From positions 1 through 64,000 of the forward strand of contig RPGO01000035.1 of NCBI GenBank assembly GCA_004193545.1: a stretch of DNA of 64,000 nucleotides, in the 5' to 3' direction. The notes beneath the pieces were generated by a model. That model was not told the DNA's origin. It did not search any database and saw nothing but the letters and a program-made list of their open reading frames with translations. This stretch comes from Candidatus Argoarchaeum ethanivorans (GTDB lineage: Archaea; Halobacteriota; Methanosarcinia; Methanosarcinales; EX4572-44). Positions 6,208-49,906 of this stretch are shown in pieces; position 1 is the stretch's first letter, and every line of letters begins with the position of its first letter. The position numbers and the translations under genes were made by a program.

Positions 6208-6353
6208 CTGCACAACTTCGTTGTGCAGAGTGCGAAAATAATTCTCGATTACGCAAGTACTGCACAACTTCGTTGTACAGAAATACAAAACAACGTGTCT
6301 TGATTGCGAAGCAATCAAGTGCACCAGTAACTCTCGATTACGAAGTAATCGAG
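6208..6353. repeat. Cluster of intergenic palindromic hairpins
   Basis: CTGCACAACTTCGTTGTGCAG (6208-6228), CTGCACAACTTCGTTGTACAG (6260-6280), CTTGATTGCGAAGCAATCAAG (6299-6319), CTCGATTACGAAGTAATCGAG (6333-6353). Confidence 0.9.
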
Positions 6354-6363
6354 GTGATAAAAA

Positions 6364-7734
6364 ATGGTAGAAGAGTTTCCGTTTGAAATATCCCCCATGT
6401 TTGAGGGAGAACGAATTAGAAAAGATGGGTTGCATGTGGAGCTTGCAGGTCCGAAATCAAAAGGATTTGAGCTTGTACAGGCAGCAAAGATGAGTGAAGT
6501 TGAAGATGGCAAAGTAACACTTATAGGTCCAGACATAAGCGAGATGGAAGAAGGTAAAACCTATCCTTATGCAATGATCTACTACATTGCAGGCGAACAT
6601 GTGGAGAGAGATGTTGAATCCATTGTAGAACGTCGAAACCATGATTTTCAGAACTATATTCATGGATACATGCACTTAAACCAGAGATATGACATCTGGA
6701 TTAGAATTGGAAAGGAAGCAATAAGTAAGGGACTTAGCTCACTGGAACAGATCGCACAAGCAACGATGATGCTGTTTAAAAACGAGCTTCCATTTATAGA
6801 GAGAATCGAGGCTGTTTATATAACGGACATTGCAGAAATAGAAAAACGAATGGAAGAAGCAAAGAAAACATACAATCTGAGAGATGCAAGAACCAGAGAT
6901 CTGCACGAAGAGGATGTGGACACCTTCTACGGCTGCACCCTCTGTCAATCTTTTGCTCCAACGAATGTCTGTGTAATTACCCCGGATCGTGTATCGCTCT
7001 GTGGAGCAATCAACTGGTTTGATGGGAGAGCAGCAGCCATGACAGACCCGGAAGGTCCGCAGTTTGCAATTAAAAAAGGCGAAGTACTTGACCCGGTTGG
7101 TGGAGAGTACAGCGGGGTTAATGAACTTGCAGCAAAGCTTTCAGGTGGTGCGTACAATAGAATCAAACTCCACTCGTTCTTTGAATATCCGCACACATCC
7201 TGCGGTTGTTTTGAAGTGGTGGGATTCTTTATGCCTGAAGTGGATGGAATAGGCTGGGTCGACCGGGATTTTAATGGCACTGCCCCAAACGGGCTGCCCT
7301 TTTCTACCATGGCAGGCCAGACAGGCGGCGGAAAACAGGTAGTTGGATTTCTTGGAATAGGCATCAACTATTTCAGGTCCCCCAAATTTATACAGGCAGA
7401 TGGCGGATGGAATAGAACGGTCTGGATGCCAAAGGTTCTGAAAGATCGGGTAAGTGGGAGCATACCACAAGAGATAATCGATGCCATTGCTACAGAAGAA
7501 GATGCTACTAATATTGGTAAACTAAAAGCATTCTTAGTTGAACACAAGCATCCTGTAGTCGCTCGATTGCAAAACAAAAAAGAAGTGGTAACAAGTAAAG
7601 AAGTTGTGGCAGAAACTGCACAAGCGCAGGCTCAGGATGTATTACATCTATCAGATGGTACTGGCGGCGGTCTAAAAATTGTCCTCTCCAATGCGAAAAT
7701 CACGATAGACAAAATAATAGTGAAGAGGAAATAG
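6364..7734 (+). CDS. cdhC: Acetyl-CoA decarbonylase/synthase beta subunit
   Basis: FYGCTLCQSFAPTNVCVITPDRVSLCGAINWFDGRAAA; PHTSCGCFEVVGFFMPEVDGIGWVDRD A-cluster ligands. Confidence 0.95.
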   Translation: MVEEFPFEISPMFEGERIRKDGLHVELAGPKSKGFELVQAAKMSEVEDGKVTLIGPDISEMEEGKTYPYAMIYYIAGEHVERDVESIVERRNHDFQNYIHGYMHLNQRYDIWIRIGKEAISKGLSSLEQIAQATMMLFKNELPFIERIEAVYITDIAEIEKRMEEAKKTYNLRDARTRDLHEEDVDTFYGCTLCQSFAPTNVCVITPDRVSLCGAINWFDGRAAAMTDPEGPQFAIKKGEVLDPVGGEYSGVNELAAKLSGGAYNRIKLHSFFEYPHTSCGCFEVVGFFMPEVDGIGWVDRDFNGTAPNGLPFSTMAGQTGGGKQVVGFLGIGINYFRSPKFIQADGGWNRTVWMPKVLKDRVSGSIPQEIIDAIATEEDATNIGKLKAFLVEHKHPVVARLQNKKEVVTSKEVVAETAQAQAQDVLHLSDGTGGGLKIVLSNAKITIDKIIVKRK

Positions 7735-7843
7735 TATTTACTATACAAAAATGTCTGTAACGGCTGTTGCGTCAGTAATTGAGTAATAAAGTGCTATGTT
7801 ACCAGGATTACACATTACTGATTGTACGATTGCGGCACCATCT

Positions 7844-38706: not shown

Positions 38707-40293
38707 GTGAAAAAAAATATGAGAGTAAAAGAAAGTAAGCAAAAACGTAACCTAAAGATGTTTTTAGCCCTTTTAGTTGCGGCAATACTTCTCGCTTCAA
38801 TCGTTCCGACTGTAAGCGCGTCCGAATGGTGGGATTCATGCTGGAGTCATCTGAAAGCAATAACTGTAACCGAGAACACAGGTTCAACCCTGACTAACTA
38901 TCAGGTTGAACTGACGGTAACTTATGACTCTGATATGAAAAACAATTTCGATGACCTGCGGTTCACCAATGCAAACGGGACTGAACTTGACTACTGGATT
39001 GAATCCAAGACAGACGGCGACTCGGCTGCTGTTTGGGTCGAGGTCGATTCTCTGACTGCTTCCAGCGACACCACTATTTATATGTATTATGGAAATTCTG
39101 AGGCGAGCAGTGAGTGTAACGGGAGCGCTGTGTTTGAGTTCTTCGATGATTTTGATGCTGGGCTTGGGAAGTGGAACAATTTTGGCACTCCTACTCCAGT
39201 GACCTTCGAGAGCATAGAGTTCCACGACGGCTGGGGCTACTCCACGAAGGGCGATAGTTGGTATAGGTCAGGCAGTTATTCAAAAGCATTGTTGGATGTT
39301 ACCAGTGGAACAACAGTAGATTTCAGGGTCAAACAAGGGACTGGACATGCCTCCTGGGATAGGTTTAATGATATCGGCATTGGCAGTCTACAATACGGAT
39401 ATACCGAGAGCAGTCATCCGGAGTATTTCACTATTGCTTTAAGGGATGGTTCTCTGAACGATATTACCTATCAGGCTTACAACGGTAAAACCTATACTAA
39501 AGAGGGTACAGACGATCATCAATTTCATAGATATTCTATGAAGTACAATAGCTCCAACGATCAAATAGCCTACTACAGAGATGAACAACTCAACACCACT
39601 TTGACGGCAGATTCCAGACCCTACGATACATTACCTTTTCTATTGGCTGGTCGTGATTACGGGAGCACTGGTACTACAAATTATTTGGATTGGGTTTTAG
39701 TCCGTAAATACGCGGACCTTGAGCCAGGTGCTATTTTTGGGAATGAAGAGGATAATCCTTCACAGGGCTGGTATTTGAGCAGCACCGATAGTGGTCTTAA
39801 TAAGGGGATGTACAAAGGAAGTCAGAGTGGGGCGGCGGATTCTGTCTTTGTAGAGGGGTTTGAGGAAGTTGTCTGGATTGCAGATGAACCAGCAAGCGCA
39901 GATGTTGGCTTTCCCGCGGGAGACTGGACCGGACATTTGAGGAAAACAGGCGATGGAGACGAGTTTGAGGTTGAAATCGGCGTATGGGATGGAATTGGCT
40001 TTGACTCATGAGGGTATTATGACGAAGGTAATTTTGGAGCTGGTAACGATGCGGATTTTACGATAAGTGCTGATTCATTTACCGTATTGGCAGACGAATG
40101 GCTGGCTTTTCGTGTAACGAACTGGGACTTGGATGAATATGATTTCTACATTGTTACTGCTGACGGTCCGAGTTATGTCTCATCTCCACCAACCGACCCC
40201 AGCTACCCCGTTCCGGAACTCCCGACCGTCCTGCTCTTTGCGGTCGGGCTGCTCATGCTTGCAGGATACGTGTGGATCCGACGGAAGACGTGA
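38707..40293 (+). pseudogene. DUF2341-type surface protein with PEF-CTERM tail, interrupted by an in-frame TGA at 40009-40011
   Basis: 38707-40011 and 40087-40293 share a frame with no other stop between; tail VPELPTVLLFAVGLLMLAGYVWIRRKT. Confidence 0.8.
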
Positions 40294-41254: not shown

Positions 41255-42613
41255 TTAAGAATCTTGTTTATGGGTTAGTAAGTGATAGAGGAATGTTCTG
41301 AACTCCGGATGCTCTATTGCGAATAGTTCGTGGTCTGAAAGGGTTGAAAATCCATCCTGTTTGATTATTTGTGTTATGTGTTTTCCAAGTCCGCATGTTA
41401 GTAGTTCTGATTGGAATAGTGAGGTTGGTGTCGTGTAGACTCTCTGTATGTTTAGAGTATATTTACCGTCTTTGATGTATATATACGATAGATTGCCTGA
41501 CTTTTTATGGTATTTCGCTTTGAATTTTTCAGCATTGTCTTTTAACCATACTGGTGGTCCAATGTGTTTTTTGACCATTGGAAGCTTCGTTTCAAACAGT
41601 TCAAAGATAAGATAAATATCTGCATTTAACACGATGTAGTTGCTGTTTATAATTCGAAAATCATGCCTTGTTAATAGTTTTTCTACTGCATTTCGCATTT
41701 TTTCAAGCTGCGGATACAATGTGTCCTCCACTATGCAGGGCTTATGAAATGTAATACCTATTAACTCGGTGCCTCTTCTGTGAAACAGTTGTTCTATCTC
41801 CTCCTGATACACGAGCTTGCGTGCTGGTTTAGAGAAATATTCTGTGCACGGGTTTTTCAGGAAATTTCGAGCAATGTCAATGAAACGACACATGTTATCA
41901 AGGCTGAGTGCTGCTGCCACGTTTCGTTTAGGATCGGTTGGGTCAATCACCACAAGTGGATCACCATGCTTATGTGTTGCATGTTTTTTTATATCGATTG
42001 TTGTGCAGGGTTTCCATCTCAAGGAGGCTTTGAGTAATGCTTCAAACGAGCCGTAGTGTATGATCAGCAGTTCTGTCAGGTAGCCAGAAAAGCCATGTGT
42101 TCTCAGTTCTGAGCCATAGATTCCTGCTGCTTTAAGGAATTGTTTTGCAAGGCGCACATCCTTCTCACACGTTTTTATATATTTTTTTACAAAGTTGTTG
42201 TGGTGGGGAGTTCTATCCACTGCCGATTTGATGTTTTTTGTGTCTTTGATGTTAAAGCACGGCACAACGTCTATCTTGTAACTATTCATCATTCCATGCA
42301 GATATGGGTGCTCTGCATATCGCTCTTCTATTTTATCTGCATCGAAGAGTACTTTTCTTGCAATGTCAAGACCTGTTGTTTCAAGAGTTTTGCGATTCGC
42401 AGTTTCTGGAAACAGGATAAACAGATCGATGTCGTGTTCACCTGAAATCCATGTGTCTCTTGCTGCAGAACCGACAAGAACACCTTTGACCTGAAACTGT
42501 TTTGCAAAGCTGTTGATGCGTTCTAACAGCAAGTCGGCGATTATTTTTAGCTCTCTCCGCTCTTTCTCAATAGGCGTTATGCCCGGGAGTATTCTTTTGA
42601 AGATTTCCTGCAT
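41255..42613 (-). CDS. cca: CCA-adding tRNA nucleotidyltransferase (archaeal class I)
   Basis: VKGVLVGSAARDTWISGEHDIDLFILFP; LRTHGFSGYLTELLIIHYGSF; VVIDPTDPKRNVAAALS. Confidence 0.95.
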   Translation of the reverse strand: MQEIFKRILPGITPIEKERRELKIIADLLLERINSFAKQFQVKGVLVGSAARDTWISGEHDIDLFILFPETANRKTLETTGLDIARKVLFDADKIEERYAEHPYLHGMMNSYKIDVVPCFNIKDTKNIKSAVDRTPHHNNFVKKYIKTCEKDVRLAKQFLKAAGIYGSELRTHGFSGYLTELLIIHYGSFEALLKASLRWKPCTTIDIKKHATHKHGDPLVVIDPTDPKRNVAAALSLDNMCRFIDIARNFLKNPCTEYFSKPARKLVYQEEIEQLFHRRGTELIGITFHKPCIVEDTLYPQLEKMRNAVEKLLTRHDFRIINSNYIVLNADIYLIFELFETKLPMVKKHIGPPVWLKDNAEKFKAKYHKKSGNLSYIYIKDGKYTLNIQRVYTTPTSLFQSELLTCGLGKHITQIIKQDGFSTLSDHELFAIEHPEFRTFLYHLLTHKQDS

Positions 42614-42803
42614 CTGTTCCTGTTTGAATGTCCTGTTCTACAGTTGTTTCAAGCTTATTTTATAACCACAAGATTACACAAACCTGCAACATTTGGATAG
42701 CCCCGCCCTTCTCCATGCAATTACTGTCTTGCGGGTTTGTTAGCTGAGTAGGCGTTGCTTGGAAGCCTTTGTTCTGGATATAAAAGTTCATTTGGTTCCA
42801 TAG

Positions 42804-43184
42804 TTATATTGTCTCCATTTGTCGTAATTTTTCTAAAGTCCTTTTAGATAAGTCAAGTGCAGTTTTTGCCCTCGAAACATTAATATCTGTATCATTTTCG
42901 TAATCAGCATCTTTTCTTTCCTTCCACAGGCGGCGTAAGTTCTTTCCTATCTTCTTCTCTACGTTACGTGGTGATCTTTGGTATTGCTCCCTTACAAATT
43001 TGTGAGTATCAACTCTTGGAATGGATGTGTTTTTAACAAAAAGGTGATTCCTTGCGATACAAAATATACCATAATAACAGCGGCTCATTGCCGAACGTAG
43101 ATGAGCTTCTCGTAAATCTGCATTTTCCTGATAAGATATAAATTCGTCAGCCAATTGGACATACAACTCCCAGTTAAAACTCAT
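42804..43184 (-). CDS. HEPN-domain protein (UPF0332-like)
   Basis: EAHLRSAMSRCYYGIFCIARNHL; ERKDADYENDTDINVSRAKTALDLSK (R-x-D-ADY motif). Confidence 0.75.
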   Translation of the reverse strand: MSFNWELYVQLADEFISYQENADLREAHLRSAMSRCYYGIFCIARNHLFVKNTSIPRVDTHKFVREQYQRSPRNVEKKIGKNLRRLWKERKDADYENDTDINVSRAKTALDLSKRTLEKLRQMETI

Positions 43185-43627
43185 GTTGGTCTCACCATTA
43201 TTTCAAGTATATTACCAATATCATCATCTACATCAAGCCACCACTCCTCATCGAATCTATCTAAAAGATTCAAGGACTCTTCAGGTGATGAGTTGGTTTT
43301 TATGATAATGAAAAGCCCTTCAAAATCTTCCTCGTAGTCTCTGTTCAATTCCAAGTATAGAAAAACATTCTTACCAAAGATAGAGAAAATATGCCTTGGA
43401 GCTTCAAATAGAATGCCTAAGCACCAGGGATGGTTGTTGATGAATTGAATCACTTCTGTTTTACTATTTTCATCAGAAAAGGCATAGAATTGGGATAAGG
43501 CAGCAAATTCCTCCTTTTTTCCAAGAATTTTTATATATTTGATTGCTTGCTTATAGATATTGAGAGAATAATCATAAGCGTTAAATGTTTGGAATCCCAT
43601 AACAATTGGCAGGTATTCACTGCTCAT
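43181..43627 (-). CDS. Hypothetical protein, HEPN-operon gene 3
   Basis: 148 aa, 4-nt overlap with HEPN gene. Confidence 0.6.
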   Translation of the reverse strand: MSSEYLPIVMGFQTFNAYDYSLNIYKQAIKYIKILGKKEEFAALSQFYAFSDENSKTEVIQFINNHPWCLGILFEAPRHIFSIFGKNVFLYLELNRDYEEDFEGLFIIIKTNSSPEESLNLLDRFDEEWWLDVDDDIGNILEIMVRPT

Positions 43628-43628
43628 T

Positions 43629-44693
43629 TTAGCCTACTGCCTCCATTTCTCTGTGTAGTTTCTCCACAAATTCAATAAAATCATCTCTTGCCTGTTCAAT
43701 AAGTTCCTTACTGGCAAAAATTGGTTCCTCTGGTGGGACTTTATCGAAGTTTAACACAGTCATATCATATTTTGAATGAATAATTTCATGTCTCAGATCA
43801 ATATATTTTTGAATACTTTTTAAAATTCCACCCTTCAAATTGGGAATTTCACCGAATTTTATTTCATAGGCTTTTTTATATGCCGTTTTACAATCTTCCC
43901 AATTTTGAAAATTTATTAAACCTTTCCCTTTTCTTACCTCGAGCATGCTCTCTAAAATGCTCTTCTCCATTGATTTTGCATAATTTTCTATTTCCTCTTT
44001 TACAGATCCCTTTCTGTCAAATTCCTTCATTAGACCTTCAATATTTGGTTTTCTCCCTTCTTTTTCCAGTTCCACAAATCTGGTTCTGGTGTAAACCTCA
44101 AACCCTGTCACCAGCATTATCAAACATTGTTGAACGAGCGTGGACTCAAAAAGGAAATCTTTCAACTTACACCCTTCAATTAAAATATTAACCTTGGTAA
44201 CAGTAAAATCCCATATTTCCTTTGCAGATGGTTCAAGAACATCGCGACCAGCCTCTCTTACACGGTACCCCCCTACTTCTATATCCTCATCTCCTATTTG
44301 ATATAGTGCACCATTTTTGCCTATCCTTATCTCTCCACCTCTTTGTTCTGCTTTACTGGATTTTAAATTTAAGCCACCTTCTTCACCGACATAGAGATAA
44401 TTTTCTTTTTCCGACCAGGTTAAAGCAATAAATAATCCCCTATCGGAATTAAATTCTTTAATGTTCACCTTTGCCACGCGTATTCCCGTTTTTGTATTCC
44501 AGTGAGTAAAAACAAGATCGATGTTTTTATCCCGATGAAGTGCAAACCTTGAGTCCAAAACTTGAATATCAAAGAACAAAATATTCTCTAAAGAGGCATC
44601 CATCAAGTTACCCTTTGCTATCCTAAATTCTAAAGTTCCTTCTTTTTCCTCAACTTTCTCAAAAGGTATATTCAATGGGTTATAACCTCTCAT
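43629..44693 (-). CDS. Large hypothetical protein with a C-terminal HEPN-like R-x4-H motif
   Basis: KYIDLRHEIIHSKYDM near C-term after a long helical segment. Confidence 0.6.
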   Translation of the reverse strand: MRGYNPLNIPFEKVEEKEGTLEFRIAKGNLMDASLENILFFDIQVLDSRFALHRDKNIDLVFTHWNTKTGIRVAKVNIKEFNSDRGLFIALTWSEKENYLYVGEEGGLNLKSSKAEQRGGEIRIGKNGALYQIGDEDIEVGGYRVREAGRDVLEPSAKEIWDFTVTKVNILIEGCKLKDFLFESTLVQQCLIMLVTGFEVYTRTRFVELEKEGRKPNIEGLMKEFDRKGSVKEEIENYAKSMEKSILESMLEVRKGKGLINFQNWEDCKTAYKKAYEIKFGEIPNLKGGILKSIQKYIDLRHEIIHSKYDMTVLNFDKVPPEEPIFASKELIEQARDDFIEFVEKLHREMEAVG

Positions 44694-45046
44694 CCAACCT
44701 TCCCTCCTAACATCTTATTCGTATCATTTTCGAACACATCCACCACCTTAACTGCTCTATCGCCTTTTCTGCCATGCAAATATCTGAAGCCGGTTAAAGA
44801 CTGAGTTTGATAGAGTTTGAGCATAAAGGCAAGATATTCATTCCCTGGGGAGAGTAAAGCGGTATATCCACCTTTAATTCTGGGCTTGTTTACTATTTCC
44901 ACTACCTGAAAAGGGGGGGTTGGCTTTTCTGTTGGCATCTTTTCACCCTTCTCGTATCTGTCATATTTTTCAGCCCGGATTAGTTCAGCATACTTTTTAT
45001 TATCTGCCATATTCACCACACTTTTAACATATATACCGCCATTCAT
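44690..45046 (-). CDS. Hypothetical protein, HEPN-operon gene 1
   Basis: MADNKKYAELIRAEKYDRYEKGEKMPTEKPTPPFQVVEIVNKPRIKGGY; 4-nt overlap with next gene. Confidence 0.6.
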   Translation of the reverse strand: MNGGIYVKSVVNMADNKKYAELIRAEKYDRYEKGEKMPTEKPTPPFQVVEIVNKPRIKGGYTALLSPGNEYLAFMLKLYQTQSLTGFRYLHGRKGDRAVKVVDVFENDTNKMLGGKVG

Positions 45047-45144: not shown

Positions 45145-45684
45145 TTATTTAAGCAAAATCTCACACACGGTTTCGTAGATTGGCCCTTTTGCTGTGAGTG
45201 TGCTTTTTTTAACCTTCAATGAATTAACTGTGAAGCTGCCAAGTGTAATATCTGCAAGGCTGGATACCTTTTCTTTCAACTGCCTTTCTTTTTTGCTGTC
45301 TATTCTTTTTACTCGTGCAATGGTTGCATGGGCTGTAAAATCATTACTTGATGCAAAACCAAAACCAGATAAAACCTTATCCACTTCTCTTTGCAGTGCA
45401 TCGAAATTTCCCTTTGCTCCAAGCCATATCACTTTTATGCGATCCGATTTTGGAAAAACCCCAACACCCCCAAGCTCTGCCTCAAAAGGTGGAAACGACA
45501 CCTGCGATAGTGCCGTGCAAATCCTTGATACCCCGGACTCGTCAACCTCACCCAAAAATTTCATCGTTATGTGAACAAGCTCCGGTCTAACAAGTTTTAT
45601 GTCAGGAAGATCGAAGTTTGATCCAACATCTTCAATAGATTCCGCAAACGAGGCAGGGAAATCAACAGCAATAAAAGTTCTCAT
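45145..45684 (-). CDS. thpR: RNA 2',3'-cyclic phosphodiesterase
   Basis: MRTFIAVDFPASF; ELVHITMKFLGEV (HxTxKFLG); FTAHATIARVKR (second HxT). Confidence 0.93.
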   Translation of the reverse strand: MRTFIAVDFPASFAESIEDVGSNFDLPDIKLVRPELVHITMKFLGEVDESGVSRICTALSQVSFPPFEAELGGVGVFPKSDRIKVIWLGAKGNFDALQREVDKVLSGFGFASSNDFTAHATIARVKRIDSKKERQLKEKVSSLADITLGSFTVNSLKVKKSTLTAKGPIYETVCEILLK

Positions 45685-49835: not shown

Positions 49836-49906
49836 CTTGATTACTTCGTAGTCGAGAGTTATTCCTGCACACTCCGTGTGCGGTTCTGCACAACTTCGTT
49901 GTGTAG
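49836..49906. repeat. Composite palindromic element
   Basis: CTTGATTACTTCGTAGTCGAG (49836-49856), GCACACTCCGTGTGC (49867-49881), CTGCACAACTTCGTTGTGTAG (49886-49906). Confidence 0.85.

Follow-up and report, generated by a model that had tools for sequence, protein, structure and literature searches.

A Type III restriction-modification operon decayed to three cargo genes, including a candidate HEPN toxin-antitoxin pair, between thpR and cca of Candidatus Argoarchaeum ethanivorans

The linkage of HEPN toxins to restriction-modification (R-M) operons is a described theme (PMC3710099), of which PrrC/EcoprrI, a Type Ic system with a HEPN RNase gene nested in the R-M operon and proposed to encode a second-line suicide effector, offers a close parallel to the locus considered here. 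However, the R-M genes of our locus belonged to Type III (mod/res) rather than Type I and are gone, and its small HEPN protein, P0004, lacks the ABC-ATPase of PrrC and is paired with a further protein, P0003. Another parallel is found in the HEPN/MNT systems (HepT-MntA; PADLOC PDC-M05), which likewise form an overlapping two-gene operon with a small basic HEPN protein encoded downstream of its partner, but P0003 has neither the MNT motif nor detectable MNT similarity, and P0004 lacks the R-x4-H-x-Y signature. In the type IX retron Kva2 (PDB: 36ht), defence depends on H64, R122 and Y40-42, and degradation of tRNA has been reported (PMC13405049). P0004 is similarly a non-canonical HEPN protein with a Tyr motif, a His and an Arg, whereas no reverse transcriptase or winged-helix gene occurs among the flanking ORFs (cca, thpR, rpl11, nusG and SRP19). 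Finally, P0003-type and then P0004-type genes follow a first gene in triads headed by TIGR04255; unlike these, the present locus has no TIGR04255 gene, and P0002 occupies that slot. A predicted HEPN RNase whose acidic partner is not an MNT protein would add to both the toxin-antitoxin and the R-M-linked suicide modules.

Scars and open frames between thpR and cca

The window is a stretch of 64,000 nucleotides of Candidatus Argoarchaeum ethanivorans (contig RPGO01000035.1, positions 1 to 64,000). Its nearest loci place the host among the ethane-oxidising archaea of Ca. Ethanoperedens/GoM-Arc1. An ORF check of the window confirmed the coordinates, strand and junctions of four ORFs that a sequence-only reading had proposed as an undescribed four-gene, two-HEPN toxin or defence system inserted between two housekeeping genes. 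All lie on the minus strand, namely P0001 (44690..45046, 118 aa), P0002 (43629..44693, 354 aa), P0003 (43181..43627, 148 aa) and P0004 (42804..43184, 126 aa). Read from 5' to 3', neighbouring frames overlap by 4 nt at the first and third junctions and stand 1 nt apart at the second. The host flanks, also on the minus strand, are thpR, of the LigT/2'-5' RNA ligase family (45145..45684; PF02834, E 1e-28), and cca, encoding the CCA-adding enzyme (41255..42613; PF09249, E 7e-45). These two genes are adjacent in many relatives, an adjacency that is also common in other families, and in the sister species G024 only some 100 bp separate them and the cassette is missing. The insertion is therefore upheld.

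The four-gene composition did not survive comparison with intact Type III systems. Judged from its sequence, P0001, though open, is what remains of a Type III Mod methylase rather than a gene of the system, and we do not count it as a working gene. When aligned with the intact 634-aa Mod of the archaeon G283, it gives three collinear matches: its residues 13-71 correspond to Mod 1-61 (74% identity, E 2e-26), residues 42-101 to Mod 375-429 (E 9e-16), and residues 88-117 to the Mod C-terminus, 604-633 (E 6e-8), the stretches between these pieces being deleted in the window. Mod is reduced differently in each relative, with 19 C-terminal codons remaining in Ca. Ethanoperedens thermophilum (L006) and approximately 32 N-terminal codons in L008. 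Downstream of the last HEPN gene, and absent from the sequence-only account, is a scar of the N-terminus of Res, the Type III helicase/nuclease (42691..42801, minus strand), which begins 2 nt past the stop codon of P0004 and is 43% identical over 37 aa to the Res of L007 (E 2e-7 in a single-pair search). Its counterpart in L006 spans 48 codons, and 38 aa of it align with residues 1-38 of the G156 Res at 68% identity (E 4e-14). Only scars of mod and res are present in the window, and its genome, which is 82% complete, yielded no Res homologue at E 1e-40.

The two scars enclose P0002, P0003 and P0004 in operon order and with operon spacing. Taken together with the intact operon of the Dehalococcoidia genome G781 (see below), they identify these genes as the cargo that survives from a Type III R-M operon, three genes whose frames stayed open while mod and res decayed to scars. 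The cassette or its remains are found in the window, in G009/L008 and in E. thermophilum, and not in G024. As G024 is the nearest of these to the window by the dS of cca (0.13, against 0.24 for G009/L008 and 0.33 for E. thermophilum) and yet lacks the cassette, the simplest reading is a single gain followed by loss in G024. A palindromic element, TGCACAACTTCGTTGTGCAG, occurs at window positions 6208-6280 and 49887-49906 (4 matches against 0 expected by chance), and is present too in the thpR-cca spacer of G024 and of L006.

Predicted properties of the three cargo proteins

The sequence-only reading had assigned HEPN domains to P0004 and P0002, and both assignments proved right. P0004, a basic protein (pI 9.5) and predicted RNase toxin, matches the Pfam HEPN family PF05168 (E 1.7e-4, 22.2 bits; cut-off 22) and the PADLOC HEPN_IX profile (E 7e-6), and its relatives in the PDB are the HEPN protein 9xbd (E 1.1e-8) and the retron-Kva2 HEPN 36ht (E 0.044). 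The canonical HEPN motif R-x4-6-H does not occur in the P0004 family. Its place in the sequence signature is held by R90-x4-Y95 (R90-K-D-A-D-Y95 in P0004), and R30, S34, R35, Y37, H61, R90 and Y95 are invariant in all 27 family sequences. In the alignment with retron-Kva2, Y40-42 and R122 of the latter fall on P0004 equivalents, and H61 lies about two columns from Kva2 H64 in what is a weak alignment (E 0.044). The Tyr/His/Arg site of P0004 thus appears to resemble that of the type IX retron HEPN tRNase.

P0002 is predicted to combine an N-terminal β-rich domain with a C-terminal RNase domain resembling HEPN_RiboL-PSP (PF18735). The match covers residues 186-351 (E 8.1e-6) and, at 26.3 bits, falls below the Pfam cut-off of 28.4, as does that of the homologue in the Dehalococcoidia genome G477 (27.2 bits). 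An R-x4-H motif, R301-x4-H306 (43776..43793, minus strand), is kept among 11 homologues, with R301 invariant and H306 nearly so; in the L006 protein H306 is replaced by Tyr. Despite the likeness to PF18735, the N-terminus is β-rich, and no RiboL or PSP domain was detected. The AF2 model, built from three sequences, places strands at residues 19-132 and helices from residue 157 at low confidence (pLDDT 43.6-44); it was too poor for a fold search, and its secondary structure alone was used. Matches of the P0002 profile to ribosomal uL23 were judged to be due to chance. We consider P0002 to be probably a second RNase. In other Halobacteriota its homologues mostly stand alone. In one locus (L046, G168:C1, 8832-10377) the gene upstream of a P0002 homologue, and overlapping it, is of the DUF4062 type, and genes resembling those of CRISPR type III lie close by.

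P0001 and P0003 had not been recognised in the sequence-only reading, and neither gave a convincing match in Pfam, NCBIfam, PADLOC or PHROGs. For P0003 the sole hit was a weak one to BrxB in PADLOC (E 0.0014), which is not seen in its homologues and was treated as chance, as were the matches of its profile to G-proteins. The absence of an MNT partner, also remarked upon earlier, was supported. A model of P0003 (mean pLDDT 65) has an α-β-β-α-β order suggestive of an MNT-like fold, but Foldseek returned nothing below E 0.001, hhalign to three MNTs gave a probability of 0.1%, and neither an NTP_transf match nor a GSx..DxD motif was found in P0003 or in its family alignment (A4). Foldseek did not recover a known antitoxin fold either. 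P0003 is acidic (pI 4.4), and this holds for its family (median pI 4.7) just as basicity does for the P0004 family (median pI 9.4). Fusions of family members to defence-type partners are seen in L122 (an XRE HTH domain) and L120 (a methyltransferase-like protein). We infer that P0003 restrains or inhibits P0004, acting as its antitoxin or adaptor.

The P0003-P0004 pair and the intact operons

A P0003-based search gathered 28 loci, in 26 of which the P0003-family gene is immediately followed by a P0004-type HEPN gene, a proportion that describes the neighbours of P0003 and is no census of HEPN genes. One of the two remaining loci is cut off by the end of its contig. The pairs span Halobacteriota, Chloroflexota and cyanobacterial plasmids, and the P0003 family is present in 10 of 397 Halobacteriota genomes and 17 of 301 genomes of the phylum to which G477 belongs; most genomes compared are MAGs, and E-values from our local scripts refer to small sets. 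A tblastn search for P0002 and P0003 in plasmids found nothing. The pair shows gene features of a type II toxin-antitoxin system, namely a two-gene unit, an upstream, overlapping gene for an acidic partner, a basic toxin and a mobile distribution. It is missing from the family libraries searched, and to this extent the locus was rightly called undescribed; the theme of R-M-linked HEPN toxins had been described before (PMC3710099). In the gene neighbourhoods the pair recurs, P0002 is mostly solo elsewhere and the first ORF is not conserved.

What precedes the pair varies. The first gene is TIGR04255 in 6 of 14 Chloroflexota loci and in a Thermus plasmid triad, a gene for a 205-aa archaeal protein in six loci, a SIR2-TPR gene in one (L021), and P0002 in Ethanoperedens and G477; some loci have no first gene, and bare pairs occur on Gloeothece plasmids and in L123. 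Similarity between TIGR04255 and the 205-aa protein is undetectable (hhalign probability 0.6%). No mention of TIGR04255 was found in open-access text, and absence of TIGR04255 or the pair from such text is no proof that they are undescribed. A divergent TIGR04255/P0003/HEPN triad is present in a methanogen virus (L126; BK063677, 51298-52942), and in an Enterococcus phage (L127; OP745419) a three-gene cassette near the phage integrase ends in a P0004-type HEPN gene.

An intact operon is found in G781, in the order lysS, modN, a 71-aa ORF, modC, P0003 homologue (60% aa identity to that of the window), P0004 homologue (77%) and a complete 855-aa Res. Here a HEPN gene lies inside an intact R-M operon, as in the PrrC-like arrangement, and the 4-nt overlap of the pair and the start of Res 2 nt after P0004 are common to G781 and the window. 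P0002 is absent from the G781 operon, and its ancestral operon position is therefore known only from decayed copies. In G477 (also Dehalococcoidia; L007/L078) Type III Mod and Res are encoded beside homologues of P0002 (83% identity) and P0003 (72%). This P0002 homologue sits in an island of 39% GC beside a Dehalococcoidia lysS of 57% GC, a site that is empty in the close relative G779 and that harbours a related island in G781. The LysS of the contig is 98% and 86% identical to those of the Dehalococcoidia relatives G779 and G781, respectively; together with the independent related island beside LysS in G781, this makes misbinning or chimerism of the G477 contig unlikely, and the 83% identity of its P0002 to that of the window opens a probable archaea-bacteria transfer to examination.

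Related Type III mod/res operons hold IetA-IetS in G283, P0003-P0004 in G781 and nothing in G156 in the cargo slot, a concrete case of exchangeable defence cargo in one slot; G477 possesses both IetA-IetS and an MNT-HEPN pair, the latter inside mod. In L078 (G477:C91) separate polypeptides make up the N and C parts of Mod, and this MNT-HEPN pair is encoded between them; in G781 the 71-aa ORF lies there, and in L107 (G156:C7:50000-67000) an MNT gene separates the two. The archaeal operon of L109 (G283:C229, 2833-9907) has the order mod-IetA-IetS-res, with IetAS in the slot held by P0003-P0004 in G781, and its IetS and res genes are broken by stops or frameshifts.

Function and fate of the locus

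On balance we favour, with some reserve, the reading in which the locus is what is left of a mod-P0002-P0003-P0004-res operon acquired by horizontal transfer, with a P0003-P0004 toxin-antitoxin or abortive-infection module as its functional core; the role of toxin or abortive-infection effector suggested earlier is supported as a probable one. Under this reading the Type III operon would have inserted between thpR and cca in an ancestor of Ca. Ethanoperedens. P0004 would be a basic, probably dimeric HEPN RNase, likely directed against tRNA or other RNA, and P0003 the acidic inhibitor dedicated to it, whose gene overlaps that of P0004 on the upstream side and whose product would be made first. 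Where the system is intact, the toxin might be silenced by P0003 along with the R-M complex or a variable first protein acting as sensor, and a virus that disabled or triggered the sensor could release it and cause growth arrest, by analogy with PrrC/EcoprrI. P0002, which stands in the first-gene slot and is solo in other archaea, might serve there as a second HEPN RNase effector. The trio may have persisted after loss of the R-M genes because the toxin opposes its removal, or as an abortive-infection unit in its own right. More tentatively, and with a chance that we would put somewhat short of even, P0003-P0004 could form the effector part of a modular family of defence systems, as yet undescribed and spread over archaea and bacteria, plasmids and one methanogen virus, in which an acidic adaptor/antitoxin and a non-canonical HEPN RNase are coupled to exchangeable sensors. 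Such sensors, present as first gene or fusion, would include TIGR04255, the 205-aa archaeal protein, SIR2-TPR, P0002, methyltransferases or the enclosing Type III mod/res. This variable-sensor/fixed-effector pattern makes the question of the trigger testable by first-gene swaps.

The position of the G781 pair between mod and res, with operon spacing, and the L120 fusion of a P0003 domain with a methyltransferase-like protein would also suit a role for P0003 and P0004 as accessory or regulatory components of the Type III complex, concerned with specificity, assembly or control of methylation, instead of a toxin-antitoxin pair. We regard this as unlikely, given that most homologous pairs have no adjoining mod/res (the Gloeothece plasmids, L123, the Chloroflexota TIGR04255 triads and the SIR2 operon of L021), that mod-res operons of the same lineage have other cargo or none at that place (IetA-IetS in G283, none in G156), and that P0004 has invariant RNase-like residues. 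The self-contained four-gene, two-HEPN system originally proposed accounts for the tight packing of the four frames and for the presence of two HEPN domains, but it is very improbable, with an unconserved Mod scar as its first frame, P0002 homologues that are mostly solo, and P0003-P0004 pairs that elsewhere occur without P0002.

P0002, P0003 and P0004 are open in both the window and L006 (86, 76 and 86% aa identity), at about 10% DNA divergence and with a single in-frame indel, and dN/dS values of 0.21 for P0002 and 0.44 for P0003 indicate constraint over much of the divergence time. These observations make it improbable that the locus is a decaying relic devoid of present function in its archaeon, despite the reduction of Mod and Res to scars, the damage to the L008 and L006 copies and the loss of the cassette in G024. 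The dN/dS of P0004 (0.66) is not clearly distinct from neutral, and this, with the loss of the catalytic His of P0002 in L006, means that the module may be in decay. The L008 copy has lost P0003, and its P0004 survives truncated at the N-terminus and fused to the start of P0002. Survival of P0004 without P0003 is unexpected for a strict toxin-antitoxin pair, unless that P0004 is inactive, and argues against the favoured reading.

Some further observations concern these copies and the neighbourhood. The L008 fusion (7192-7761) joins the first ~55 residues of P0002 in-frame with the truncated P0004 as one 189-aa ORF. The dS of P0004 between the window and L006 is 0.095, about a third of the 0.25-0.33 of the flanking genes, possibly reflecting gene conversion or constraint. 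Elsewhere in the window, a surface-protein-like ORF (38707-40011) is followed by a separate frame (40087-40293) ending in a PEP/PEF-CTERM-like sorting segment, and the two may be one interrupted gene.
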